In this document: positions 988 to 14,299 of the stretch, one piece after another
Layout of the letters: each line of letters starts with the position of its first letter
Numbering within the stretch: position 1 is the first letter of the stretch
DNA from: a virus
IMG/VR virus record: IMGVR_UViG_3300044720_000028
Location: 1-28,635 of that record
Direction: 5' to 3' (one strand)
Length of the DNA stretch: 28,635 bases
The notes under the pieces: generated by a model
Database searches by the model: none
What the model was told of the DNA's origin: nothing
What the model saw: only the letters and a program-made list of their open reading frames with translations
Translations under genes and position numbers: made by a program

Positions 988-1038
988 ACGGGCCAATCTG
1001 CGTCCCTCCGTACCGCCTGCATATGCCCTGGAAACAGG

Positions 1039-1066
1039 AAGGGGACCGGCGAGTGCCGGTCCCCTT
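1039..1066. terminator. bidirectional hairpin between converging units
   Basis: AAGGGGACCGGC, loop GAGT, GCCGGTCCCCTT: a perfect 12-bp stem with a four-base loop. It ends in A or T on both sides, so each strand has a short U run in its transcript. It lies between the stop at 987 and the stop of the leftward unit at 1092. It is the only strong structure in this 104-base gap, so it probably ends transcription from both sides. Confidence 0.85.
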
Positions 1067-1306: not shown

Positions 1307-1756
1307 TTACCTGGTGGGGGACTGCTCCTGGAGAACCAGGTCTCGGCGCAGAACATTCCACGCCGCGTCCAGCTCCCCCTCGTAGTCCCTGGCCGGCCTG
1401 CCCCGCGTCCCGCGGCGCCGAGCCTCGTCGGAGGCGGCGAACACCGGGTCGGTCAGGGCGATGACCCGCACCAAGGCCTTGCGGGCGGTCTCCAGGCGCC
1501 GGGCCACGGGGCTCTGCGTGATGCCCCGCTCCGCGGCCAGCTCCTCCTGGGTCTTGCGGTGCCAGAAGGCGTCCACCAGCAGCTCACGCTGGTCCTCGGG
1601 CACCTGCTTCAGGTACGGGTCGAGCACAGCTCGCAGCTCGTGGTACCCCGCGGCGAGAGCTGGTTCGACGTGCCCGTTCCCCCAGAGGGGACGAGCGTGC
1701 CGTAGGCTCTCCAGCTCCTCCGCGGAGCCCACCAGGCGGACGGACGGCTTGTTCAT
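1307..1756 (-). CDS. sigma factor-like protein with region 4 helix-turn-helix only
   Basis: A 149-residue protein. ATG 1756 is chosen because it overlaps the preceding stop (ATGA) and has GAGG upstream. Residues 52-100 (VPEDQRELL..., TQEELAAERGITQSPVARRL) match the pattern of sigma-70 region 4: a helix ending in a hydrophobic turn, then a helix-turn-helix with EELA and a basic recognition helix ending ARKAL. No region 2 can be seen: only about 50 residues precede this part. The 45-residue C-terminus is basic then acidic. In sigma factors region 4 binds the -35 element and the RNA polymerase beta flap. The protein may be a phage transcription factor for the late promoters at 7844, 11852 and 25200 (inference). 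A plain helix-turn-helix repressor is the alternative. Confidence 0.6.
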   Translation of the reverse strand: MNKPSVRLVGSAEELESLRHARPLWGNGHVEPALAAGYHELRAVLDPYLKQVPEDQRELLVDAFWHRKTQEELAAERGITQSPVARRLETARKALVRVIALTDPVFAASDEARRRGTRGRPARDYEGELDAAWNVLRRDLVLQEQSPTR

Positions 1757-1956
1757 GCCGTCCTCGGGGCGGACGAGACCTTGCACGCCCTCCGGTGCGC
1801 CCCGATGCCGAGGCCTGAGCCCCACAGGCGCTTCCCGCAGGGCCGGTGGACCACCCGGTAGACGCTGGGCGGGTACCGGTGGCTCCCGAGCCAGTCGGCC
1901 ATCTCCTCCCGGGTCGGGAAGGTCCGGTCGAAGTCCGCTGGACCCTTGTGCGCCAT
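1753..1956 (-). CDS. small Cys/His-containing protein, 67 residues
   Basis: Starts at ATG 1956, which forms TGATG with the stop of the 29-residue gene upstream, and ends in ATGA with the sigma-like gene. These exact overlaps decide the start over the upstream GTG 1983. The product begins MAHKGPADFDRTFPTREEM and ends with HRPC...H..C (VVHRPCGKRLW, GAHRRACK), a possible small metal-binding site. I do not recognise it. The coupling to the sigma-like gene suggests the two are made in fixed ratio. Confidence 0.6.
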   Translation of the reverse strand: MAHKGPADFDRTFPTREEMADWLGSHRYPPSVYRVVHRPCGKRLWGSGLGIGAHRRACKVSSAPRTA

Positions 1957-2045: not shown

Positions 2046-2060
2046 GGCTCCTCCTCTCGG

Positions 2061-2108
2061 CTGGTACGTCCAGCTCGTCGGGGAGCCCTCACGGGCTCCC
2101 CTGCGAGC
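2061..2108 (-). repeat. two-hairpin intergenic element, copy 1
   Basis: Plus-strand coordinates. Hairpin I: CTGG 2061-2064 with CCAG 2070-2073. Hairpin II: outer GCTCG 2073-2077 with CGAGC 2104-2108, a TC/TG internal loop, inner GGGGAGCCC 2080-2088 with GGGCTCCCC 2093-2101 and loop TCAC. It lies between the stop at 2137 and the ribosome binding site of the 29-residue gene. There is no U run, so it is not a classical terminator. Confidence 0.85.
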
Positions 2109-2136
2109 GGGGCCTACCGGGTCGCTACTCCACCCG

Positions 2137-2436
2137 TCAGCGGGTCTCGAACCGCTCCGCGGCCCGCGTGTCCCGGGCCTGCTCGGCCTCGAACTCCGGG
2201 GTGCTGGGGACCAGGCCCTCGGCCTCGACGAACCGCTCGAACTGGTCCATGAAGGCGTTGTACGCCTCGGTGAGCGCGTCGTACGCCTGCCGGCACGCCG
2301 GGACCTCGTGCGGGGCGCGGCTGTTCAGCACGCGCTCGAACATCTCGATGTCGCCCAGGATGGTCCGGGTGTTGTGGGCCATCGCCTGCGCCATCGTGGC
2401 GCTGTGCTGGTGGACGTGAACCTCCATGACGCACAC
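2137..2436 (-). CDS. helical protein, 99 residues, unknown function
   Basis: GTG 2436 is preferred to ATG 2427 because GGGAGG lies five bases upstream of it; the product then begins MCVMEVHVHQHSAT. The N-terminus is histidine-rich (HVHQH). The rest is predicted helical with heptad-like hydrophobics (ILGDIEMFERVLN, AYDALTEAYNAFMDQFERF) and ends in charged EFEAEQARDTRAAERFETR. No motif is recognised. It lies between two intergenic hairpin elements. Its own ribosome binding site lacks the GAGAGGAG sequence common in this unit. Confidence 0.65.
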   Translation of the reverse strand: MCVMEVHVHQHSATMAQAMAHNTRTILGDIEMFERVLNSRAPHEVPACRQAYDALTEAYNAFMDQFERFVEAEGLVPSTPEFEAEQARDTRAAERFETR

Positions 2437-2452
2437 GGGCGCCTCCCTTCGT

Positions 2453-2500
2453 GAGCCCCTGCGGCTCGTCGGGGAGCCCTTGGTGGGCTCCCCTGCGAGC
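2453..2500 (-). repeat. two-hairpin intergenic element, copy 2
   Basis: Hairpin I: GAGCC 2453-2457 with GGCTC 2463-2467. Hairpin II: outer GCTCG 2464-2468 with CGAGC 2496-2500, inner GGGGAGCCC 2471-2479 with GGGCTCCCC 2485-2493, loop TTGGT. In this copy hairpin I shares four bases with the outer stem of hairpin II, so the two cannot both be fully formed. Confidence 0.85.
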
Positions 2501-2512
2501 GGTAGGAACGCC

Positions 2513-2848
2513 TCAGCTCGCGCTGATGTTCCCGTCCTGGTCGACCTTGATGGTGACCGTGACACCCCCGCCCCTGCGGTTCTTGCGGCCGTTCGACCAC
2601 TCGTACCAGATGGGCCAGGCCGCGTCCAGGTGGTCGCACCCGAACTGCTTCCGCGGGGACCCGTCCAGCGCGGGCTTCGTGACCCGGTAGAAGTAGTCCT
2701 CGCAGGTGCAGGTGCCGGCGCCCTCACCGAGCGCCACCGTGTGGGACTTGCCTGGCCGCGACCGGGACGCGACCTCGAACATGGCGACGTCCCTGCCCCG
2801 CTGGTCGACCATGACCACGTCCTGCGGGTTCAACCCTCCGATGCCCAT
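2513..2848 (-). CDS. SWIM-type zinc-finger protein
   Basis: A 111-residue protein starting at ATG 2848, preceded by AGGAGAGGAG. It has strand-like residues 21-40 (VAMFEVASRS..., KSHTVAL), then Cys47-x-Cys49 in TCTCEDYFYR and Cys71-x-His73 in FGCDHLDAA. This is the CxCx(n)CxH spacing of the SWIM zinc finger, including the usual aromatic residues after CxC. SWIM domains bind DNA or proteins and occur in helicases, transposases and recombination partners. The C-terminus (GGGVTVTIKVDQDGNISAS) looks like a beta hairpin. As a stand-alone SWIM protein it may act with a DNA-repair or recombination partner encoded elsewhere (inference). The upstream gene ends four bases before its start. Confidence 0.75.
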   Translation of the reverse strand: MGIGGLNPQDVVMVDQRGRDVAMFEVASRSRPGKSHTVALGEGAGTCTCEDYFYRVTKPALDGSPRKQFGCDHLDAAWPIWYEWSNGRKNRRGGGVTVTIKVDQDGNISAS

Positions 2849-2851
2849 GCC

Positions 2852-3058
2852 CTACTCCTCTCCTGGCCCCGGTGCGAACCGGCAGCCCGTCAGGTGTGAC
2901 GCTCCCTGCCATCCCAGCATCCCGCAGGCCGGGCAGTTCGGCGTGCGGTCCCCGAGGGTCGGCAGGGCCTTGACCCTGGCCTCCTCGGCCTGCCTCTGGC
3001 GCAGCGGTCGAAGGGCCAGTCGCTCCCCCCGCACGTTGCCCTTGCTTCGTCGTACCAC
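2852..3058 (-). CDS. small basic protein with zinc-ribbon-like C-terminus
   Basis: GTG 3058 is chosen because GAGAGGAGGAG precedes it; the long frame further upstream has non-coding character. The 68-residue product starts MVRRSKGNVRGERLALRPLR, is strongly basic and helical, and ends with CPAC (residues 42-45), His55 and Cys59, so a single C-C-H-C metal site is likely. It could bind nucleic acid. No family is recognised. It is tightly followed by the SWIM gene, so both are probably translated from one message segment. Confidence 0.65.
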   Translation of the reverse strand: MVRRSKGNVRGERLALRPLRQRQAEEARVKALPTLGDRTPNCPACGMLGWQGASHLTGCRFAPGPGEE

Positions 3059-3073
3059 GCTCTCCTCCTCTCG

Positions 3074-3123
3074 CTGCCGCCCTGGCAGCTCGTCGGGGAG
3101 CCCTGACGGGCTCCCCTGCGAGC
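3074..3123 (-). repeat. two-hairpin intergenic element, copy 3
   Basis: Hairpin I: CTGCC 3074-3078 with GGCAG 3084-3088. Hairpin II: outer GCTCG 3088-3092 with CGAGC 3119-3123, inner GGGGAGCCC 3095-3103 with GGGCTCCCC 3108-3116, loop TGAC. The last G of hairpin I is the first G of hairpin II, as in most copies. Confidence 0.85.
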
Positions 3124-3141
3124 GGTCAGCTTCAGGTCCTA

Positions 3142-3414
3142 TCAGTTCGTCGCCTCCCCCTGAGCCTCCCAGAGCCTCGCGTGGACCTGGGCGTCGGCGT
3201 TCCGAAGTAGCGCCATCGCCAGGCTGTACTGGCCTGCCACTGTGAACCGGACAGGGGCCATCGCGGTGCGCTGGCCGATGGTCAGGGTGATGTCCCCGTC
3301 CCCCTCGGTGTGCAGCGACCAGGTGTCGGCGTGGTCCGGCTCGGCGCCGACCGTGTCGGCCGCCCCTACCATGCTCCGCACGGGGCCAACCCGTGGGGAC
3401 TTCTCTCGTGCCAT
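3142..3414 (-). CDS. unknown protein, 90 residues
   Basis: ATG 3414 is preceded by GAGAGGAG at normal spacing. The product begins MAREKSPRVGPVRSMVGAAD and has a central beta-type stretch (TWSLHTEGDGDITLTIG, MAPVRFTVAG) and a C-terminal helix (SLAMALLRNADAQVHARLWE). No cysteines, signal or membrane segment are seen. The pattern resembles small phage proteins with one beta sheet and a helix, but I cannot name a family. Confidence 0.65.
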   Translation of the reverse strand: MAREKSPRVGPVRSMVGAADTVGAEPDHADTWSLHTEGDGDITLTIGQRTAMAPVRFTVAGQYSLAMALLRNADAQVHARLWEAQGEATN

Positions 3415-3432
3415 CGGTTCTCCTCTCGTCGT

Positions 3433-3489
3433 CCGGTCGCGGCGACCGGCTCGTCGGACCGAGGAGTACAACCCCTCGGCCCTGCGAGC
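3433..3489 (-). repeat. two-hairpin intergenic element, copy 4
   Basis: Hairpin I: CCGGTCG 3433-3439 with CGACCGG 3443-3449. Hairpin II: outer GCTCG 3449-3453 with CGAGC 3485-3489. Its inner stem differs from copies 1-3 (CCGAGG with CCTCGG, flanked by GG/CC across an A-C mismatch), so the fold is kept with other bases. The last base of the element is the first base of the stop codon region of the gene at 3489. Confidence 0.8.
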
Positions 3490-3848
3490 TATTCCCCGCT
3501 GGTCCTGACCTTGTAGCCCCACTCCTCCAGCTCGCCCATGAGGGTCTTCCGGTCGAGCTTCCCGGCCGCCTCCAGGAGGAGCTTCGCCGCGGCCCGGAGG
3601 GTCGGCGCGTCCATGTTCTGGAAGGCGCTGCCCTCCCAGGCGTCCTCCCCGTCGAGGAGGGCCACGACCACCTGGTCAGCCTGCTCGGGCCAGTGCGGGT
3701 TCGGAGGCTCCTGGTCGTACACCCGCAGCTCGTGCCACTCGTCCCCGTACCGCTCCCGGTTCTCCTGCCGGAACAGAACCGCGGTCCACTTCGACTCGCG
3801 CACCTGCCGGTCCGCCGGGTAGGACCCCCGCTCGGTCTTGGTCTCCAT
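3489..3848 (-). CDS. unknown protein, 119 residues
   Basis: ATG 3848 follows GAGAGGAG with a seven-base spacer; the frame further upstream is arginine/glycine-rich and not coding-like. The product begins METKTERGSYPADRQVRESK. It has a beta-rich part (WTAVLFRQEN..., WHELRVYDQE) and a C-terminal half with helices (TLRAAAKLLLEAAGKL, LMGELEEWGYKV). No catalytic motif is recognised. It lies between two hairpin elements in the leftward unit. Confidence 0.65.
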   Translation of the reverse strand: METKTERGSYPADRQVRESKWTAVLFRQENRERYGDEWHELRVYDQEPPNPHWPEQADQVVVALLDGEDAWEGSAFQNMDAPTLRAAAKLLLEAAGKLDRKTLMGELEEWGYKVRTSGE

Positions 3849-3864
3849 CGTGTGCTCCTCTCCA

Positions 3865-3912
3865 CCCGACCATCGGGCTTGTCGGAGGCCGGTGTCCCGG
3901 CCCCCTGCAAGC
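3865..3912 (-). repeat. two-hairpin intergenic element, copy 5
   Basis: Hairpin I: CCCGA 3865-3869 with TCGGG 3873-3877. Hairpin II: outer GCTTG 3877-3881 with CAAGC 3908-3912, so the middle pair of the common GCTCG/CGAGC stem has changed on both sides. The inner stem is GGCCGG/CCGGCC extended by GG/CC across an A-C mismatch. This is a compensatory change supporting a folded RNA. Confidence 0.85.
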
Positions 3913-3919
3913 CTGGTGC

Positions 3920-4213
3920 TCAGCTCAGCAGGACGTGCCCCAGGTCCTGGAAGTGCTCCACCAGGCCCGGCACCGTCTTGTCGACGAACGTGAGCCGCGT
4001 GTACAGGCGCACCGACTCGGTGTACCCGTCGCCCAGCTCGGCCTGGCCGAAGGTGTCCGGGCTCGTGGTCGCGAGGAACCACCGGGCGTACCGCTTCGTG
4101 TCATCGGCCTGGTAGGACTTCAGGACCGCGTAGCGGGTGTCCCCGCTCCAGGTCTCGAACACGGCGTACGGCTTGTCGGCCTTCCGCCCCTTCCGCATGA
4201 GGTTCTCGGCCAC
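3920..4213 (-). CDS. unknown protein, 97 residues
   Basis: GTG 4213 is taken as the start because GAGAGGAG lies six bases upstream; an internal ATG follows at residue 6. The product begins MAENLMRKGRKADKPYAVFE. It alternates short strands (YAVFETWSGDTRYAVLKSY, RYARWFLATTS, SVRLYTRLTFVD) and ends in a helix (VPGLVEHFQDLGHVLL). The composition suggests a compact soluble domain. I do not recognise it. Confidence 0.65.
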   Translation of the reverse strand: MAENLMRKGRKADKPYAVFETWSGDTRYAVLKSYQADDTKRYARWFLATTSPDTFGQAELGDGYTESVRLYTRLTFVDKTVPGLVEHFQDLGHVLLS

Positions 4214-4227
4214 GGTGCTCCTCTCCG

Positions 4228-4279
4228 CTGGTGACCCTCACCAGCTCGTCGGGGAGCCCTGACGGGCTCCCCTGCGAGC
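4228..4279 (-). repeat. two-hairpin intergenic element, copy 6
   Basis: Hairpin I: CTGGTGA 4228-4234 with TCACCAG 4238-4244. Hairpin II: outer GCTCG 4244-4248 with CGAGC 4275-4279, inner GGGGAGCCC 4251-4259 with GGGCTCCCC 4264-4272, loop TGAC. It is nearly identical to copies 1-3 in hairpin II but has a longer, different hairpin I. Confidence 0.85.
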
Positions 4280-4287
4280 CGTCCGAC

Positions 4288-4926
4288 CTACTGGTCGGCC
4301 TTGACGCCCGGCCCGAACGCGGCCAGCTCGGCCAGGTCCAGGAGCTTGACGAGCCCCGGGATGGCGTACTCCGGGACCTCCGCGCCGAAGGCCTGGAGCC
4401 CGCCACTGGTGACCCACACGGCGGACGTGCCCTTCCCGACCAGGTTGTTCAGCCGCGTGGCGATGGCCTGGTTCTTCTCCCGGCGAGCCTCAGCGTCGGC
4501 CTTCTGCTTCCGGTAGTTCGCCTGGATGGCCTGCACCTCGGCCTTGCGGTTGGTCCAGGTGTCGCGAATCTCCTGGGGCCGCACCAGCTGGAAGCTCCAG
4601 CGGGTCTCGGGACCCTCGGCCGCCTCCGGGTTGTAGGCCTGCGCCACCATGCAGGGGACCCCGTGCGCGCCCAGCGCGTAGTACACGGGCCGCTCGATGG
4701 TGAGGGTGGTCTCGTGGTGCCACTTCTCCGGGGTCGGCCGGTTGGCCTTGCCCGTCTGGGGGTCGAAGGGCGGGTCCGCCGGGATGGCGGGCGCGTCCAC
4801 GACCTTGCGGGTCCTGGAGTACAACATCTTCGCCTCCAGGACCACGACCCGGCGCCGGTCGCCCAGGTGGCGCGTACCGCTCGCGGCGAAGTAGTCCTTC
4901 CCCGCTTCCAGCTCTGACACCTTCAT
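4288..4926 (-). CDS. unknown protein with central coiled coil, 212 residues
   Basis: ATG 4926 is preceded by GAGAGGAGGAC; upstream sequence in the same frame is open to 5148 but has weak coding character. The N-terminal part is beta-rich (residues 1-115: KDYFAASGTRHL, RVVVLEAKMLYS, VYYALGAHG). It is followed by a charged helix with coiled-coil potential at about 118-163 (rich in K, E, Q, R). A short C-terminal domain (AVWVTSGGLQAF, PGLVKLLDLAELAAF) follows. It is the second-largest product of the leftward unit. Function is unknown; a DNA- or protein-binding scaffold role is only a guess. Confidence 0.7.
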   Translation of the reverse strand: MKVSELEAGKDYFAASGTRHLGDRRRVVVLEAKMLYSRTRKVVDAPAIPADPPFDPQTGKANRPTPEKWHHETTLTIERPVYYALGAHGVPCMVAQAYNPEAAEGPETRWSFQLVRPQEIRDTWTNRKAEVQAIQANYRKQKADAEARREKNQAIATRLNNLVGKGTSAVWVTSGGLQAFGAEVPEYAIPGLVKLLDLAELAAFGPGVKADQ

Positions 4927-5176
4927 CGGTGTCCTCCTCTCCGGGCCTCCCGGCCCCTCGGTTGCTCGGAGGGCGGTGGGGGGTCGCCACTCGGGTCCCC
5001 TTCGCTCGGGTCGGCCTTGGCCTGGTCCTCCGCTCCCGGTCAGGCCCTCTCGGGTCCTCCGGTCACTCGGGGGGCTGTACCCGTCCCCACCGCCTCCGTG
5101 CGCTCCCTGCAACCCAGGACGGTAGCAGGGGTATTCCCGGGGTGTCATCTTCCCTGGTCAGAGGGCAGATTGGGCA
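4927..5176 (-). other. 250-base leader without a convincing gene
   Basis: One frame stays open from ATG 5148 into the downstream gene, but its codons lack the strong third-position GC bias of neighbours and its translation is low-complexity Gly/Pro/Arg. The message strand has short direct repeats (GGAGGACC twice, GGACCCGAG twice) and a hairpin GGGCC/GGCCC at 4943-4956 near the ribosome binding site. It looks like a long structured 5' leader. An N-terminal extension of the 212-residue protein is the alternative. Confidence 0.4.
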
Positions 5177-5214
5177 CTCCGTCGGGGAGCCTCGTAGGAG
5201 GCTCCCCTGCGGAG
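5177..5214 (-). repeat. intergenic hairpin element, copy 7 (hairpin II)
   Basis: Outer CTCCG 5177-5181 with CGGAG 5210-5214, TC/TG internal loop, inner GGGGAGCCT 5184-5192 with AGGCTCCCC 5199-5207, loop CGTAGG. Relative to copies 1-3 both the outer stem and the last inner pair changed on both strands, so pairing is kept. Hairpin I is weak here (imperfect pairing at 5161-5179). Confidence 0.8.
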
Positions 5215-5218
5215 GGTC

Positions 5219-5467
5219 CTACCAGCCGATGTTCTCGCGCACGTCCTCGTACGCCTCGTACCACTGCGCGGCCAGGCTCGTGTGGCCCAGGCCCTCCTCC
5301 ACCATCGCCTCCTGGTGGTAGGCGTCCATCTCGGCCACGGACCGGCTGAGGTACCGGCCCACCAGGCCACCGGTCTCGATGCGGACCAGGTCCCACCGGT
5401 CGTACCTGGGCTCGCGGCCCGGCACCCGGTCGATGCGGAAGTGCTCCATCCCTGCTCGCAGCGCCAT
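5219..5467 (-). CDS. unknown protein, 82 residues
   Basis: ATG 5467 overlaps the stop of the upstream gene (TGATG), and its ribosome binding site GAGGAGGAG is the Asp/Glu codon run at the end of that gene. The product begins MALRAGMEHFRIDRVPGREP. It contains a probable strand-helix-helix arrangement (WDLVRIETGGLVGRYL, VAEMDAYHQEAMVEEGL, AAQWYEAYEDVRENIGW). It is acidic and soluble. The sequence is not assigned to a family. The coupling suggests co-production with the 75-residue acidic protein. Confidence 0.65.
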   Translation of the reverse strand: MALRAGMEHFRIDRVPGREPRYDRWDLVRIETGGLVGRYLSRSVAEMDAYHQEAMVEEGLGHTSLAAQWYEAYEDVRENIGW

Positions 5468-5694
5468 CACTCCTCCTCGTCGTACTCGTCGTCCAGCAGC
5501 TCGGTCTTCGACTCCTGGACCTCGGCCTCGGACTCCACGACCTCGGTGACGTGGCTCTGCACGTCGTCCGCGTACATGCCGTCCCGGACGAAGGCGTACC
5601 CGCGGTCCTGAGCCTCGGCCTCGTCCTGTGCGCGGACCTCGACCGTCGTCCGCTTGACCTCGGTCTCCTCGACCACCACCTGGTAGAGCGCCAC
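5467..5694 (-). CDS. very acidic small protein, DpnD/PcfM-like pattern
   Basis: GTG 5694 is chosen because GAGAGGAGG lies upstream. The 75-residue product begins MALYQVVVEETEVKRTTVEV. It continues with an EAEAQDRGYAFVRDG helix and ends in a long acidic tail (ESEAEVQESKTELLDDEYDE and two more Glu). The pattern of a short strand, VEV(R)A, an Asp/Glu-rich helix and a Tyr resembles small phage/plasmid proteins of the DpnD/PcfM type, but this is a weak recollection. The acidic tail could mimic DNA or bind a basic partner (inference). Confidence 0.55.
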   Translation of the reverse strand: MALYQVVVEETEVKRTTVEVRAQDEAEAQDRGYAFVRDGMYADDVQSHVTEVVESEAEVQESKTELLDDEYDEEE

Positions 5695-5710
5695 ACCTGC
5701 CTCCTCTCCA

Positions 5711-5769
5711 CTGCCGGACCATCCGGGCAGCTTGTCGGAAGGGCCAGTCGCCTGACCCTCCCTGCAAGC
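5711..5769 (-). repeat. two-hairpin intergenic element, copy 8
   Basis: Hairpin I: CTGCC 5711-5715 with GGCAG 5726-5730, continued by GGA/TCC across a one-base bulge. Hairpin II: outer GCTTG 5730-5734 with CAAGC 5765-5769, enclosing an imperfect inner stem (GG/CC, AGGG/CCCT, CAG/CTG with one mismatch). Same layout as the other copies with different inner bases. Confidence 0.8.
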
Positions 5770-5773
5770 CGTC

Positions 5774-5968
5774 CTAGACCTGGAACAGCTCCTCGCCGTC
5801 GCTGGTGAACAGCGCGATGGCAATGAACAGGTCATCGCAGTCGCCGCGGAGCACCGCGTCGGCCACGATGTCCTCGAACGCGACTGCCCGAGCCAGCTGG
5901 GCCATCGCCTGGTCGCTGGCCTGGCGCCGCTCTGCGGTCTGCACTGCGCAGTCATACGGGGTGAGCAT
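5774..5968 (-). CDS. unknown small protein, 64 residues
   Basis: ATG 5968 with AAGGGGCAA upstream, a weaker ribosome binding site than its neighbours. The product begins MLTPYDCAVQTAERRQASDQ and is predicted almost wholly helical (AMAQLARAVAFEDIVADAVL), ending DDLFIAIALFTSDGEELFQV. It is acidic and has two cysteines far apart. No family is recognised. It is flanked by hairpin elements on both sides. Confidence 0.6.
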   Translation of the reverse strand: MLTPYDCAVQTAERRQASDQAMAQLARAVAFEDIVADAVLRGDCDDLFIAIALFTSDGEELFQV

Positions 5969-5991
5969 CGACTTGCCCCTTTCCTTGCCGT

Positions 5992-6049
5992 CCGGTCGAC
6001 CTTGTGCCGACCGGCCAACAGGCGGGCCGCCGTAGCGGCCCCCTGCTGG
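5992..6049 (-). repeat. two-hairpin intergenic element, copy 9 (second subtype)
   Basis: Hairpin I: CCGGTCG 5992-5998 with CGACCGG 6008-6014. Hairpin II starts on the next base: CCA 6015-6017 with TGG 6047-6049, an A-C mismatch, CAGG 6019-6022 with CCTG 6042-6045, a one-base C bulge, then GGGCCGC 6024-6030 with GCGGCCC 6035-6041. This subtype lacks the GCTCG outer stem but keeps the two-hairpin layout. Confidence 0.8.
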
Positions 6050-6063
6050 TAGGCGGGCTGCGC

Positions 6064-6273
6064 CTAGCTCATGCAGCCGTGCCGGAACGGCCCGCTGGGG
6101 ACCTGGGTGAAGTGCCGCATCCCGGTCGCCACGCGCTGGGCGGCCTGGCGGTCGCCGGGCCGGTTCAGGTTCGACCCGGTCCTGGTGAGCACGTCCGCCA
6201 GGAGGTTGCGAGCGTGCAGGTCCTCGGCCTTGCGCTGGTCGAAGGCCTGGGCCTCGGTGGTGAGCTGTGCCAT
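6064..6273 (-). CDS. unknown small protein, 69 residues
   Basis: ATG 6273 with GAGAGGAG nine bases upstream. The product begins MAQLTTEAQAFDQRKAEDLH, is helical and charged through residue 50, and ends HFTQVPSGPFRHGCMS. It is basic and without a membrane segment. No motif is recognised. It is flanked by the two hairpin elements of the second subtype. Confidence 0.6.
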   Translation of the reverse strand: MAQLTTEAQAFDQRKAEDLHARNLLADVLTRTGSNLNRPGDRQAAQRVATGMRHFTQVPSGPFRHGCMS

Positions 6274-6295
6274 CTCAGTGCTCCTCTCGTGCCGT

Positions 6296-6355
6296 CCCGG
6301 CGCCCCACTGGCGCCGGGCCAACGGGCGGGCTCCCTCTCGGGAGCCCCCCGCTGG
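6296..6355 (-). repeat. two-hairpin intergenic element, copy 10 (second subtype)
   Basis: Hairpin I: CCCGGCGCC 6296-6304 with GGCGCCGGG 6310-6318. Hairpin II: CCA 6319-6321 with TGG 6353-6355, the same A-C mismatch as copy 9, CGGG 6323-6326 with CCCG 6348-6351, a C bulge, then GGGCTCCC 6328-6335 with GGGAGCCC 6340-6347. Against copy 9 the second helix changed A-T to G-C on both sides, and the inner helix changed completely while staying paired. Confidence 0.85.
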
Positions 6356-6365
6356 TAGGCAGGTC

Positions 6366-6614
6366 CTAGGCGTAGCCGACCACGCCCAGCTCATGCTGGA
6401 TGGGGGTGCCGTTCGGCAGCAGCTCCCACCCGGAGGCGAGCACCACGTCCGCACGGTAGCCACCGACTCGGTACCCGGCGGCCAGCTCGGTCGCCCCGGC
6501 CAGGGTCATCGGCCCGAACCGCTGGTAGCGCACCTCGAACGGTGCCCTACGGGCCTGCTCCCACCGAATCTCGGTGTCCCAGCACTCCACCTGCGGGTTA
6601 CTTGCGTGTCCCAT
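6366..6614 (-). CDS. unknown protein, 82 residues
   Basis: ATG 6614 with GAGAGGAG upstream. The product begins MGHASNPQVECWDTEIRWEQ and looks like a small alpha/beta domain: a helix-forming N-terminal part (WEQARRAPFEVRYQRF), then glycine-punctuated strands (YRVGGYRADVVLASGWELL, PIQHELGVVGYA). No family is recognised. Coding is supported by the start context and by its position between two hairpin elements. Confidence 0.65.
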   Translation of the reverse strand: MGHASNPQVECWDTEIRWEQARRAPFEVRYQRFGPMTLAGATELAAGYRVGGYRADVVLASGWELLPNGTPIQHELGVVGYA

Positions 6615-6633
6615 CTCCGCTCCTCTCGTTCCG

Positions 6634-6691
6634 ACCGCCCCCGCTGGGCGGTTCGTCCGAGCACCTACCGTAGCAGGTGCCCGTGCGAACC
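6634..6691 (-). repeat. two-hairpin intergenic element, copy 11
   Basis: Hairpin I: ACCGCCC 6634-6640 with GGGCGGT 6646-6652. Hairpin II: outer GGTTCG 6650-6655 with CGAACC 6686-6691 (sharing three bases with hairpin I), inner GCACCT 6661-6666 with AGGTGC 6675-6680. The bases differ from all other copies but the layout is the same. Confidence 0.8.
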
Positions 6692-6705
6692 GTCAAACGC
6701 GCTGC

Positions 6706-6927: not shown

Positions 6928-6948
6928 GAGCTGGTCTTATGCCAGCTC
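6928..6948 (-). promoter_or_regulatory. hairpin overlapping the stop of the glycosylase-like gene
   Basis: GAGCTGG 6928-6934 pairs with CCAGCTC 6942-6948; the seven-base loop contains the TAA stop (6937-6939). It may be a reduced relative of the two-hairpin elements seen in the other gaps of the unit. Confidence 0.55.
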
Positions 6949-7563: not shown

Positions 7564-7592
7564 AACGTAGCCGATGCCATGACCGATGTCAA
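7564..7592 (-). promoter_or_regulatory. leftward promoter, near consensus
   Basis: On the minus strand TTGACA (7587-7592), a 17-base spacer, then TACGTT (7564-7569). The -35 is a full match to the vegetative sigma consensus and the -10 fits TAnnnT. The expected start point leaves roughly 27 bases before the ATG at 7530. It would be served by the host's main sigma factor, as expected for early genes. Confidence 0.7.
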
Positions 7593-7840
7593 ACACGCGC
7601 CTTGACCTGCGCTTATGCGACGGGCCAATCGCCCTATGCCCTACCATGATGCGACCCTAGGACCTGGGCAGTACCCTAGGCACCCATGTCAGGGCGGTCT
7701 CTTGACTTTCAAGAGGTTGCGTGTGCAAGTATCGGAGCACCAGGGAGAGCGATTGGCGCTTCGGGACGGGGTCTTGCCCCCTCCCGCCGGGTCCCCCCGC
7801 GCCAAAGACACCCACGGAGACCCCCAGAGGCCGCCTAAAC
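7593..7840. other. gene-free divergent control region with nested hairpins
   Basis: No credible gene is seen. Two copies of ACCCTAGG (7654-7661 and 7673-7680), each holding the palindrome CCTAGG, lie 19 bases apart. A 17-bp palindrome follows at 7699-7715. A nested structure follows that: outer TTGGCGC 7753-7759 with GCGCCAA 7799-7805, inner CGGGACGGGG 7762-7771 with CCCCCTCCCG 7777-7786. Being next to the terminase genes, it may hold the packaging site (inference). Confidence 0.5.
7699..7715. promoter_or_regulatory. 17-bp palindrome over a TTGACT box, candidate operator
   Basis: CTCTTGA, spacer CTT, TCAAGAG: seven perfect paired bases on each side. TTGACT at 7702-7707 could be a rightward -35, but the possible -10 (AAGTAT, 7727-7732) is weak and spaced 19 bases away. 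A dimeric regulator binding here would block that promoter. Confidence 0.4.
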
Positions 7841-7843
7841 GTG

Positions 7844-7884
7844 CTGGTCCAGACTTTACCTGCATAGCGAGGGCGTACTAGTAG
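7844..7884 (+). promoter_or_regulatory. late promoter P1 (terminase-portal)
   Basis: A 23-base block (7844-7866) identical to that at 11852-11874. It contains the 15-base core GACTTTACCTGCATA (7852-7866), shared also with 25200-25214. The AT-containing block TACTAGTAG (7876-7884) follows and runs into GGGG. In all three copies the block ends TAGGG, 14-15 bases after the core. The core is longer than a normal -35 and unlike TTGACA, so a phage-specific factor is likely. It lies upstream of the small terminase. Confidence 0.75.
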
Positions 7885-9919: not shown

Positions 9920-11846
9920 CCCCGACCAGTACAAGGTCTACAAGGACCCGGCCACCAAGCTGAAGGTCTACCGGGACCGCATCGCCCGCGCCGAGAAGGA
10001 ACTGGACAAGCGCCGGCCGGCGGCAGCCGACGCCTTCAAGCGGTACCGGAACGACCCTCGCGAGGACACGGTCTCCCCGGGGGGCCACCAGGTGGCCGTC
10101 CCGGATGGCATCGGTGTCGTCGACACGATGTACTCCTCGCTGACCGCCGTCGAGGTCGACGTGCAGGTCACCCCGCACGCGGGGTCGCGAGACCAGGCCA
10201 GGGCAACGCAGCAGGCCCTCTCGAACGAGGCTCGCATCATCAAGGTGAACGAGCGAGTGGCCCCTGCCGTGAAGGACGCCATCCTGGTCGACGCCGGCTT
10301 CGTGAAGACGGCCTACGAGTACGCGGACCAGGTCATGGAGGTCGACCGGGACCCCGAGCACATCGCGGCCGATGCGAGGGGCCTCATACAGGCCGCCTCC
10401 CTGGCCGGGGAGAAGGTGCCGACGCCCGACGAGATTGCCTCGGTCGTTCCCGCGACCGAGGAGCAGACGGTAGTCCTGAAGGACCGCATCGTGGTCGACT
10501 ACGTCCCGTGGGACATGATGCTGTGGGACCCGGACGTGAAGCGGTGGGAGGACGTGGGCTGGGTGGCCCAGAAGTCCGTCGTCCCGCTGGAGGACGTCAC
10601 TGAGAACCCGGCCTTCAAGGCCTACGCCGAGAAGAACAAGGGCCAGTCGAAGAAGCTGGAGAAGCTGAAGGGTGACTCCTCGACGGACCGGGACGGCAAG
10701 TGGGTGGAGGCGGCCGGGGACTACATCACCCTGTACGAGGTCTATGACCTCCGCGCCGGCACGGTCTGCACCATCACGAAGAACGCCGACTTCATCCTTG
10801 ACGAGCGGCCGAATACGTTCGCCCTCTTCCCAGACCTGGAGGACCGCAACCCGTTCTCCCGGTACGTGGAGCGCACCGACCCGGAGAAGGTGACCGGCAT
10901 CGGGGACATGCGCGTCATCATGCCTTCCCTGCACGAGCTGGACCTGTACAGGAGCAGACTGGCCCTCTACCTCGACCGGAGCGTACCGAAGCTCGTCGGC
11001 CCCGAGGGTGGCCTCACCGACGCCGGCAAGGCGGCGCTGGAGAGTCGCGAGTGGGGCGCGTACGTGGAGCTGACCAAGAGCACCAACGGCCAGGAGGTCC
11101 GGCCGCTGGAGGTCCCGCAGCTCCCGCAGGAGATGTTCAACGTCCCGGACAAGATTCAGGGCTCCATCCTGGAGGCGACCGGGACGAACGAAATCCTCCG
11201 CGGCCTGTTCAGTGACCACCGCACGTCGGCCACCGAGGTCAACGCGGTGGGCCAGGCGAGCGGAGTCCGGCAGGCCGAGAAGCAGAACGGCCTGGAGGCG
11301 TTCTACCACAGCATCTTCAAGCGCGTGCTGGTCCTGATGCAGGTGTTCTACGACCAGGAGCGCGTCGTGCGCCTAGTCGAGCACGAGGGCGACGTGCAGT
11401 GGAAGTGGTCGAACCAGGACATCGTCCTGGGGGCGGACCTCGAAGTCTCCCTCACGCCGAAGGAGCCGAACACCCTGGAGTCCCGCCAGCAGCGGGCCTT
11501 CCAGTGGTTCAACCTCCTGGCCCCTGCGGCTGTCCAAGGCGGGCCAATCGACCTGTCGAAGATGACTCTCTGGGCTCTCCAGGAGTCCGGTTTCCGCATG
11601 GAGGACATCCGGTCCTTCGTCAAGACGGACGAGCAGCAGCAGCAGGCGCAGCAGGCGGCCATGCAGCAGGCGGCGCAGGGCGCGGCGGCTCAGGCTCAGG
11701 GCGCAGCGGCCGGCCAGGCCGCGGGCGCACCGGCGGACGCCGGCGGCGGGCTCCCCGCACCGGTGGCCTCCTCGCTCGGGTCCAGCCTCGTCCGGCCCAT
11801 CACGCCGGCCGACGCGAACAACGAGCAGACCATCTTCACCCCGTAA
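9912..11846 (+). CDS. portal protein
   Basis: A 644-residue protein beginning MASPDQYKVYKDPATKLKVY inside the end of the terminase gene. It has the layout of a portal subunit of a short-tailed phage: a mixed alpha/beta body with VDYVPWDMMLWDPDVKRWED (about 196-215), where a strand-loop of this kind is typical of portal wing regions. Long helices in the last third include a probable stem/tunnel helix (DKIQGSILEATGTNEILRG). A low-complexity Gln/Ala-rich tail (about 575-620) precedes a polar C-terminus. Twelve copies would form the DNA entry ring that receives the terminase and later the adaptor. Position directly after the large terminase and before the scaffold supports the call. Confidence 0.88.
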   Translation: MASPDQYKVYKDPATKLKVYRDRIARAEKELDKRRPAAADAFKRYRNDPREDTVSPGGHQVAVPDGIGVVDTMYSSLTAVEVDVQVTPHAGSRDQARATQQALSNEARIIKVNERVAPAVKDAILVDAGFVKTAYEYADQVMEVDRDPEHIAADARGLIQAASLAGEKVPTPDEIASVVPATEEQTVVLKDRIVVDYVPWDMMLWDPDVKRWEDVGWVAQKSVVPLEDVTENPAFKAYAEKNKGQSKKLEKLKGDSSTDRDGKWVEAAGDYITLYEVYDLRAGTVCTITKNADFILDERPNTFALFPDLEDRNPFSRYVERTDPEKVTGIGDMRVIMPSLHELDLYRSRLALYLDRSVPKLVGPEGGLTDAGKAALESREWGAYVELTKSTNGQEVRPLEVPQLPQEMFNVPDKIQGSILEATGTNEILRGLFSDHRTSATEVNAVGQASGVRQAEKQNGLEAFYHSIFKRVLVLMQVFYDQERVVRLVEHEGDVQWKWSNQDIVLGADLEVSLTPKEPNTLESRQQRAFQWFNLLAPAAVQGGPIDLSKMTLWALQESGFRMEDIRSFVKTDEQQQQAQQAAMQQAAQGAAAQAQGAAAGQAAGAPADAGGGLPAPVASSLGSSLVRPITPADANNEQTIFTP

Positions 11847-11851
11847 ACGCC

Positions 11852-11892
11852 CTGGTCCAGACTTTACCTGCATAGGCCAGGTAGGTATATAG
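11852..11892 (+). promoter_or_regulatory. late promoter P2 (scaffold-capsid)
   Basis: The same 23-base block as P1 (11852-11874) with core GACTTTACCTGCATA at 11860-11874. TATATAG follows at 11886-11892, ending in TAGGGG. It begins six bases after the portal stop. It would add transcripts for scaffold and capsid, proteins needed in large amounts, on top of read-through from P1. Confidence 0.78.
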
Positions 11893-14245: not shown

Positions 14246-14258
14246 CAGACGCCAGTGG

Positions 14259-14283
14259 GGGAGCCCTTCGGGGCTCCCTTATT
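14259..14283 (+). terminator. UUCG-capped hairpin after the major capsid gene
   Basis: GGGAGCCC (14259-14266), loop TTCG, GGGCTCCC (14271-14278), then TTATT. The C(UUCG)G loop is exceptionally stable. With a short U-rich tail it looks like a partial terminator that lets some transcription continue, giving excess capsid over the later genes. The next gene's ribosome binding site is just downstream. Confidence 0.75.
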
Positions 14284-14299
14284 GGAGCCAGGAGCCCCA

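Follow-up and report, generated by a model that had tools for sequence, protein, structure and literature searches.

Eleven structured RNA elements lie between the small genes of a single leftward operon in the virus record IMGVR_UViG_3300044720_000028, a 28.6-kb fragment of an unclassified, probably actinobacterial phage whose full length of 28,635 nucleotides (nt) is called here the window. The plus strand of this fragment carries the terminase, portal and major capsid genes, and the minus strand carries the leftward unit of small genes (about 7530 to 1092) in which all eleven elements share the same orientation. The elements are real, operate at the RNA level and are lineage-specific. Each complete copy is fixed between the stop codon of one gene and the ribosome binding site of the next, its stems covary, and a different hairpin family occupies the same setting in three related phages.

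Read in the sense of the message, a typical copy consists of a stop codon, hairpin II, hairpin I, the Shine-Dalgarno (SD) sequence GAGAGGAG and a start codon. In nine of the eleven copies (the CA/GA family) hairpin II is built from an outer stem of 5-7 base pairs (bp), a CA/GA internal loop that is invariant across the nine, and an inner stem of 9-12 bp that is mostly capped by a short stable loop. The invariant bases of this family are G-CA-N-GG on the left arm and C-N-GA-C on the right arm; the inner helices and the terminal loops vary, and several copies are nearly identical to each other. Copies 9 and 10 adopt a second shape, with 8 bp including one G-U pair, a bulged G and 7 or 8 further bp. 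The terminal loops of hairpin II comprise 4-5 nt, and that of hairpin I comprises 5 nt (mostly A-N-N-G-N). Both hairpins abut or overlap with zero linker in the ten complete copies (10/10). The individual structures, all on the minus strand, are as follows.

Element 1, hairpin II, 2073-2108 (-): GCTCG-CA-GGGGAGCCC GTGA GGGCTCCCC-GA-CGAGC
Element 1, hairpin I, 2060-2074 (-): GCTGG ACGTA CCAGC; SD GAGAGGAG at 2051-2058, ATG at 2045
Element 2, hairpin II, 2464-2500 (-): CA/GA loop
Element 2, hairpin I, 2453-2467 (-): GAGCC GCAGG GGCTC; 4-nt overlap with the outer arm of hairpin II; GTG at 2436
Element 3, hairpin II, 3088-3123 (-)
Element 3, hairpin I, 3073-3089 (-): SD at 3065-3072, GTG at 3058
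Element 4, hairpin II, 3449-3489 (-): starts on the final base of the upstream stop codon
Element 4, hairpin I, 3433-3449 (-): SD at 3420-3427, ATG at 3414
Element 5, hairpin II, 3876-3913 (-): outer stem GCTTG/CAAGC
Element 5, hairpin I, 3864-3878 (-): SD at 3855-3862, ATG at 3848
Element 6, hairpin II, 4242-4281 (-)
Element 6, hairpin I, 4227-4245 (-): SD at 4218-4225, GTG at 4213
Element 7, hairpin II only, 5177-5214 (-): outer stem CTCCG/CGGAG
Element 8, hairpin II, 5728-5771 (-)
Element 8, hairpin I, 5711-5730 (-): one bulged C; SD at 5701-5708, GTG at 5694
Element 9, hairpin II, 6015-6049 (-): second shape, 8 bp with one G-U, bulged G, 7 bp, TACG loop
Element 9, hairpin I, 5992-6014 (-): flush against hairpin II; ATG at 5968
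Element 10, hairpin II, 6319-6355 (-): second shape, 8 bp with one G-U, bulged G, 8 bp, GAGA loop
Element 10, hairpin I, 6296-6318 (-): flush against hairpin II; SD at 6281-6288, ATG at 6273
Element 11, hairpin II, 6649-6692 (-): CA/GA family, 7+11 bp; overlaps a promoter-like TTGACG-18-TACGGT starting at 6696
Element 11, hairpin I, 6634-6652 (-): SD at 6620-6627, ATG at 6614

A first-pass annotation of the window had located all eleven elements correctly, the positions it gave being the low ends of hairpin I (for 5177, that of hairpin II), and had rightly seen them as start-associated. Its description of the internal loop as TC/TG, and of copies 9 and 10 as bearing an A-C mismatch and a C bulge, was taken from the wrong strand, since the message reads CA/GA in the first case and has a G-U pair and a bulged G in the second. 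The separation of copies 9 and 10 from the others stands; copy 11, which had been left out of the main family, also belongs to the CA/GA family. Copy 7, to which a weak hairpin I had been assigned, has neither a hairpin I nor a nearby start codon.

The placement of the elements follows the gene boundaries closely. Between 6706 and 2046, all gaps of at least 70 nt contain one element each, and the gene pairs that overlap or touch (5467; 2852/2848) and the short gaps at 6937/6903 and 1307/1283 have none. In the eight CA/GA copies with a nearby start the internal loop is situated about 33-42 nt before the start codon, and in 10 of the 11 copies the space from the hairpin to the start codon is too small for a promoter. 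Promoter-site scores reached 8/12 only in copy 11 and beyond copy 7, the other nine scoring 7 or lower. Copy 7 is followed by 250 non-coding nt containing a promoter-like site at 5148, one of three leftward sites of this kind (5148, 6696 and 7592, minus strand) with similar -10 hexamers (TACCGT, TACGGT and TACGTT).

Covariation and the strand under selection

Energy z-scores below -3.5 were obtained for all eleven elements in an 80-nt scan of the minus strand. Covariation was assessed by pair counts with shuffle and slide controls, and the paired changes noticed at first on both sides of the stems passed in the two hairpins. For hairpin II, the nine CA/GA copies were aligned as 8 distinct rows with the loops trimmed to equal length; all 14 pairs are kept in every row and 11 of them show double changes, a result that no shuffle equalled. 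The covariation score is 0.747, as compared with 0.230 for shuffles and at most 0.22 for slid alignments. For hairpin I, counted over ten copies with the arms trimmed to 5 bp and the one bulged C of copy 8 removed, 50 of 50 cells are paired and the score is 1.316 against 0.265; the sequences are almost wholly different between copies, yet all of them pair. A hairpin I of at least 5 bp abutting hairpin II is present in 9 of the 10 copies, the best of 2000 shuffled sets reaching 7. The CA/GA hairpin with an inner stem of at least 7 bp occurs nine times in the window, always within the same 4.6 kb; among 3.06 Mb of other loci there were 16 occurrences with no clear member, about half of them corresponding to one site repeated in related contigs.

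The strand on which this selection acts could be read from the exceptions to Watson-Crick pairing. Among the 166 pairs of the hairpin II stems there are 9 G-U and 0 A-C on the message strand, and the folding energy in the sense direction is nearly constant (-30.9 to -35.3 kcal/mol in 10 of the 11 copies; -27.0 for copy 9 as cut). The antisense energies range from -20.7 to -33.9 kcal/mol, and those of the diverged copies 4, 5, 8 and 11 fall to -20.7 to -27.2. As a G-U pair would become a mismatch on the other strand, the 9 G-U against 0 A-C together with the near-constant sense energies show that selection acts on the RNA of the leftward message strand.

Occurrence elsewhere and comparison with known repeats

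The exact CA/GA element was found nowhere outside the window in the loci searched. A covariance model of the CA/GA hairpin matched only the nine window copies, and scans of 32 complete relative records and roughly 100 relative loci gave no copy. Exact hairpin II patterns were met in 71 and 61 IMG/VR contigs without a true copy, the best-scoring matches being coding sequence; the pattern combined with an SD was met in 49 contigs and, among bacterial genomes, in 29, again without a true copy. Such matches reach model scores of 20-33 bits, which reflect nothing more than the arms having been fixed by the search pattern. A scan of 296 actinobacterial genomes, with only about 20 candidates scored in each, says little, and no Rfam family was found at or above the gathering threshold.

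Three relatives whose capsid proteins are 50-52% identical to that of the window phage, G003 (IMGVR_UViG_3300003320_000267), G014 (IMGVR_UViG_3300037070_001864) and G023 (IMGVR_UViG_3300037339_000136), carry a different hairpin family, described by models R2 and R3. These hairpins were seen directly before leftward genes in G003 and G014, and R2, built from four of the relatives' copies, recovered three copies outside its training set, one in G014 (E 1.4e-9) and two in G023 (E 1.9e-9 and 2.4e-8), the E-values being rough because the calibration was short. The copies whose upstream gene end could be located start within about 10 nt of the stop codon, and all of them (8/8) end 0-9 nt before a AAGGAGGTGA-type SD and a start codon. 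By their plan a lower stem containing a single mismatch is followed by a G-G mismatch and then by about 12 upper pairs closed by a small loop. When seven copies were aligned, double changes were found at 13 pairs and the covariation score was 0.669, as compared with 0.191 for shuffles; the motif is conserved within the family. No R2/R3 hairpin was present in the other relatives searched, and the window gave at best 16.4 bits (E 0.62) with R2 and no match with R3.

The two families share the stop codon, the mismatch-bearing covarying hairpin, the SD and the start codon, in a leftward small-gene context. They differ in that the relatives' element is a single hairpin of 20-22 bp with a G-G mismatch and the motif GGCGGTGA/TGAC, lacking both the CA/GA loop and hairpin I. 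The expectation that a related phage would carry the element is therefore borne out for an analogous covarying family in the same setting and not for the CA/GA element itself, which was found in none of them. Two independent covarying hairpin families are thus present in one phage group, and the paired findings suggest that this group cuts or controls long messenger RNA gene by gene.

Some further hairpins and repeats were observed in these relatives. A weaker R2/R3 member in G014 (E 0.02; locus L245, 8309-8361, minus strand) has an altered inner stem; it follows a stop codon directly and precedes an SD. One hairpin of G003 (locus L156, about 17225-17170) has a CA/GA loop before its DUF7178 gene, a single case that may be due to chance. 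The same locus shows a repeated CCTAGGGC..GCCCTTGAC..GGGTG.TAG sequence before small leftward genes (about 19847-19780, 19565-19530 and 19095-19060, minus strand), which is unlike both hairpin families.

Actinophages hold many unexplained start-associated repeats. Among them are the start-associated sequences (SAS) and extended SAS (ESAS) of cluster K mycobacteriophages and of cluster EF phages, repeated inverted repeats that immediately precede the SD and start codon of small non-structural genes (PMC3203893, PMC7302621). The window elements are likewise repeated inverted-repeat elements just before the SD of small genes. However, ESAS carry SigA-like promoters within them (PMC11373665) and their sequence departures give no support to RNA pairing (PMC3203893), whereas in the window the stems covary, every hairpin II cell is paired and nine of the eleven copies have no promoter. 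No window site matches the 13-bp SAS GGGATAGGAGCCC at the SD with 2 or fewer mismatches. Identity with SAS/ESAS is ruled out by the absent SAS, the covarying stems and the missing promoters, in line with the distinction drawn in the first-pass annotation; here selection is clearly for RNA structure and not for DNA binding. The 17-bp palindromes of cluster O (PMC4351075) and the 18-bp inverted repeats of cluster EG (PMC7302621) are also repeated dyads of actinophage intergenic regions, but they are conserved as DNA sequence, covariation is not reported for them, and the cluster O arms are invariant in 34 sites, many of them within genes. The ANTAR-target RNA has two stem-loops, both with hexanucleotide loops (A1/G4), joined by a linker of 2-25 nt (PMC8164766), and is ruled out by the hairpin II loops of 4-5 nt, the hairpin I loops of 5 nt and the linker of 0. 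Canonical intrinsic terminators are ruled out as well, as had been proposed, since no U run follows any of the eleven copies.

Possible roles of the elements

RNA processing or protein binding are both plausible roles for the elements. The reading that we tentatively favour, at somewhat less than an even chance, is that they are intercistronic RNA-processing and insulating elements with hairpin II as an RNase III-type or phage-factor site. Each element would be a cis-acting RNA structure of the leftward polycistronic message, and together they would divide the transcript into separately handled translation units of one gene or one overlapping gene pair each. Hairpin II, with its CA/GA loop (or the bulged G of copies 9 and 10), would be recognized and cleaved by an RNase III-type double-strand-specific endonuclease or used by a phage factor. 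After cleavage the upstream message would end in a stem, and the downstream message would start near hairpin I, which would protect the new 5' end immediately ahead of an exposed ribosome binding site. Being flush, hairpin I may also stack on the short outer stem, lengthening the helix. Cleavage, the enzyme, stacking and end protection are all inferred.

Processing at hairpin II is favoured because the layout and the distance to the start codon parallel the RNase III signals of T7. When folded, the T7 early gaps, which we take to be the proven RNase III sites R0.3, R0.5, R1, R1.1 and R1.3, form a lower stem, an internal loop and an inner stem of 9-10 bp closed by a small loop, and the start codon follows about 30-36 nt downstream. 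Of these, R1.1 lies between genes 1 and 1.1, is proven as an RNase III site and has an internal loop (PMC6121014). Like the window elements, these signals are intergenic hairpins upstream of a start codon in which an inner helix, an internal loop and a lower stem follow one another; they differ in their longer lower stems, their asymmetric loops and the lack of a second hairpin flush before the SD. Several observations weigh against processing by RNase III. The helix of hairpin II comprises 14-18 pairs plus 2 mismatches, as compared with about 20 bp or more for a T7-type signal, and nine of the eleven (about 14-17 pairs; about 18 is reached only in copies 8 and 11) are short for a typical substrate of this enzyme. 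No RNase or RNA-binding domain was found among the leftward proteins scanned. Finally, RNase III tolerates varied loops, and a loop of invariant sequence would be explained at least equally well by a specific RNA-binding protein.

A broader proposal, possible though rather doubtful, is that the two families belong to an undescribed class of intercistronic RNA elements in this phage group, in which lineage-specific mismatch codes, CA/GA with a flush second hairpin in the window and G-G with GGCGGTGA/TGAC in the relatives, would be read by a dedicated phage or host factor that splits the message into single-gene units. The elements offer a direct test case for message segmentation by hairpins in phages outside the T7 group, and they could serve as compact parts separating genes on one transcript in GC-rich bacteria.

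The short helices and the invariant loop make a specific binding protein a serious rival to processing. Here the elements would be operators for an RNA-binding protein of the phage or host, which would recognize the CA/GA loop, the hairpin I pentaloop or both and jointly tune translation of the small genes up or down. An invariant loop amid variable helices, the mostly A-N-N-G-N pentaloops and the position directly before the ribosome binding site all agree with such a role. However, the SD is predicted to be fairly accessible in most copies (0.37-0.88; only copy 8 is low, at 0.04), with no clear difference from genes without elements, no candidate protein was found among the leftward proteins scanned, and it would be unusual for one operon to contain eleven operators of the same kind. 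On balance we regard this explanation as unlikely.

Termination or attenuation without U tails of the kind reported for phiC31 early genes, which would grade transcription along the operon, is to be given little weight. The phiC31 early region also presents GC-rich intergenic hairpins without U tails in an actinophage. Many of its early gaps contain a repeated GGGTTGCCGACT..CCTTAC sequence beyond the hairpin, which we take to be the early promoter; the window has no such repeat beyond the hairpins, and the window element model found no match in phiC31. U-less terminators are reported from that region (Ingham 1995, as cited in PMC4411717), adjacent hairpins after stop codons have been proposed as terminators (PMC8355165), and a promoter-like site does follow element 7. 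Apart from the missing U run, the internal loop low in the stem should weaken termination, and eleven terminators in series, at least nine of them with no promoter after them, would need antitermination.

Passive insulators, which would need no dedicated enzyme and would stop both 3' and 5' exonucleases as well as re-initiation by ribosomes coming from the upstream gene, would account for stable tetraloops and for elements present exactly where translational coupling is missing and absent at gene overlaps, but they leave the invariant CA/GA core of nine copies and the conserved motif of the relatives unexplained and appear improbable. DNA-level repeats (operators, ESAS-like promoters or mobile palindromes resembling repetitive extragenic palindromic, REP, sequences) are very improbable, and REP-like mobility and ESAS-type promoters were rejected as the main explanation: element 11 does overlap a promoter-like site and several copies are nearly identical, but the G-U bias and constant sense energy, the single orientation in 11/11 and the unrelated yet always paired hairpin I sequences speak against them.

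Genome context and neighbouring features

No near phage relative was found by megablast of the phage collection. The capsid protein of the window is 26-32% identical to those of scattered phages and 50-61% identical to those of closer metagenomic virus contigs, and a capsid search of bacterial genomes gave none. The host is likely actinobacterial, as the best matches of the first leftward gene (DUF7178) are in actinophages. With a GC content at third codon positions of 0.82-0.98, the leftward genes appear to be genuine. The unit is bounded by two features:

7564-7592 (-): candidate operon promoter TTGACA-17-TACGTT, the best-scoring site, before the first leftward gene
1020-1062 (-): strong hairpin at the end of the leftward operon, read as a terminator (energy z-score below -3.5 near 1041)

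Near its end the unit encodes a small protein with a sigma-70 region 4 match (1307-1786, minus strand), possibly a phage transcription factor. A 212-amino-acid leftward protein (4288-4926, minus strand) has no tblastn match in the phage collection, and the 250-nt non-coding stretch precedes its gene. On the plus strand, a 32-base repeat (94%, core CTGGTCCAGACTTTACCTGCATAG) is found at 7836-7867, upstream of the terminase gene, and at 11844-11875, after the portal gene, and is a candidate late promoter or regulatory site. Directly 3' of the major capsid gene lies a strong hairpin (about 14252-14285, plus strand), possibly an attenuator or a stabilizer of the mRNA, and several relatives have strong hairpins directly before the start codon in the same sense as the structural genes.

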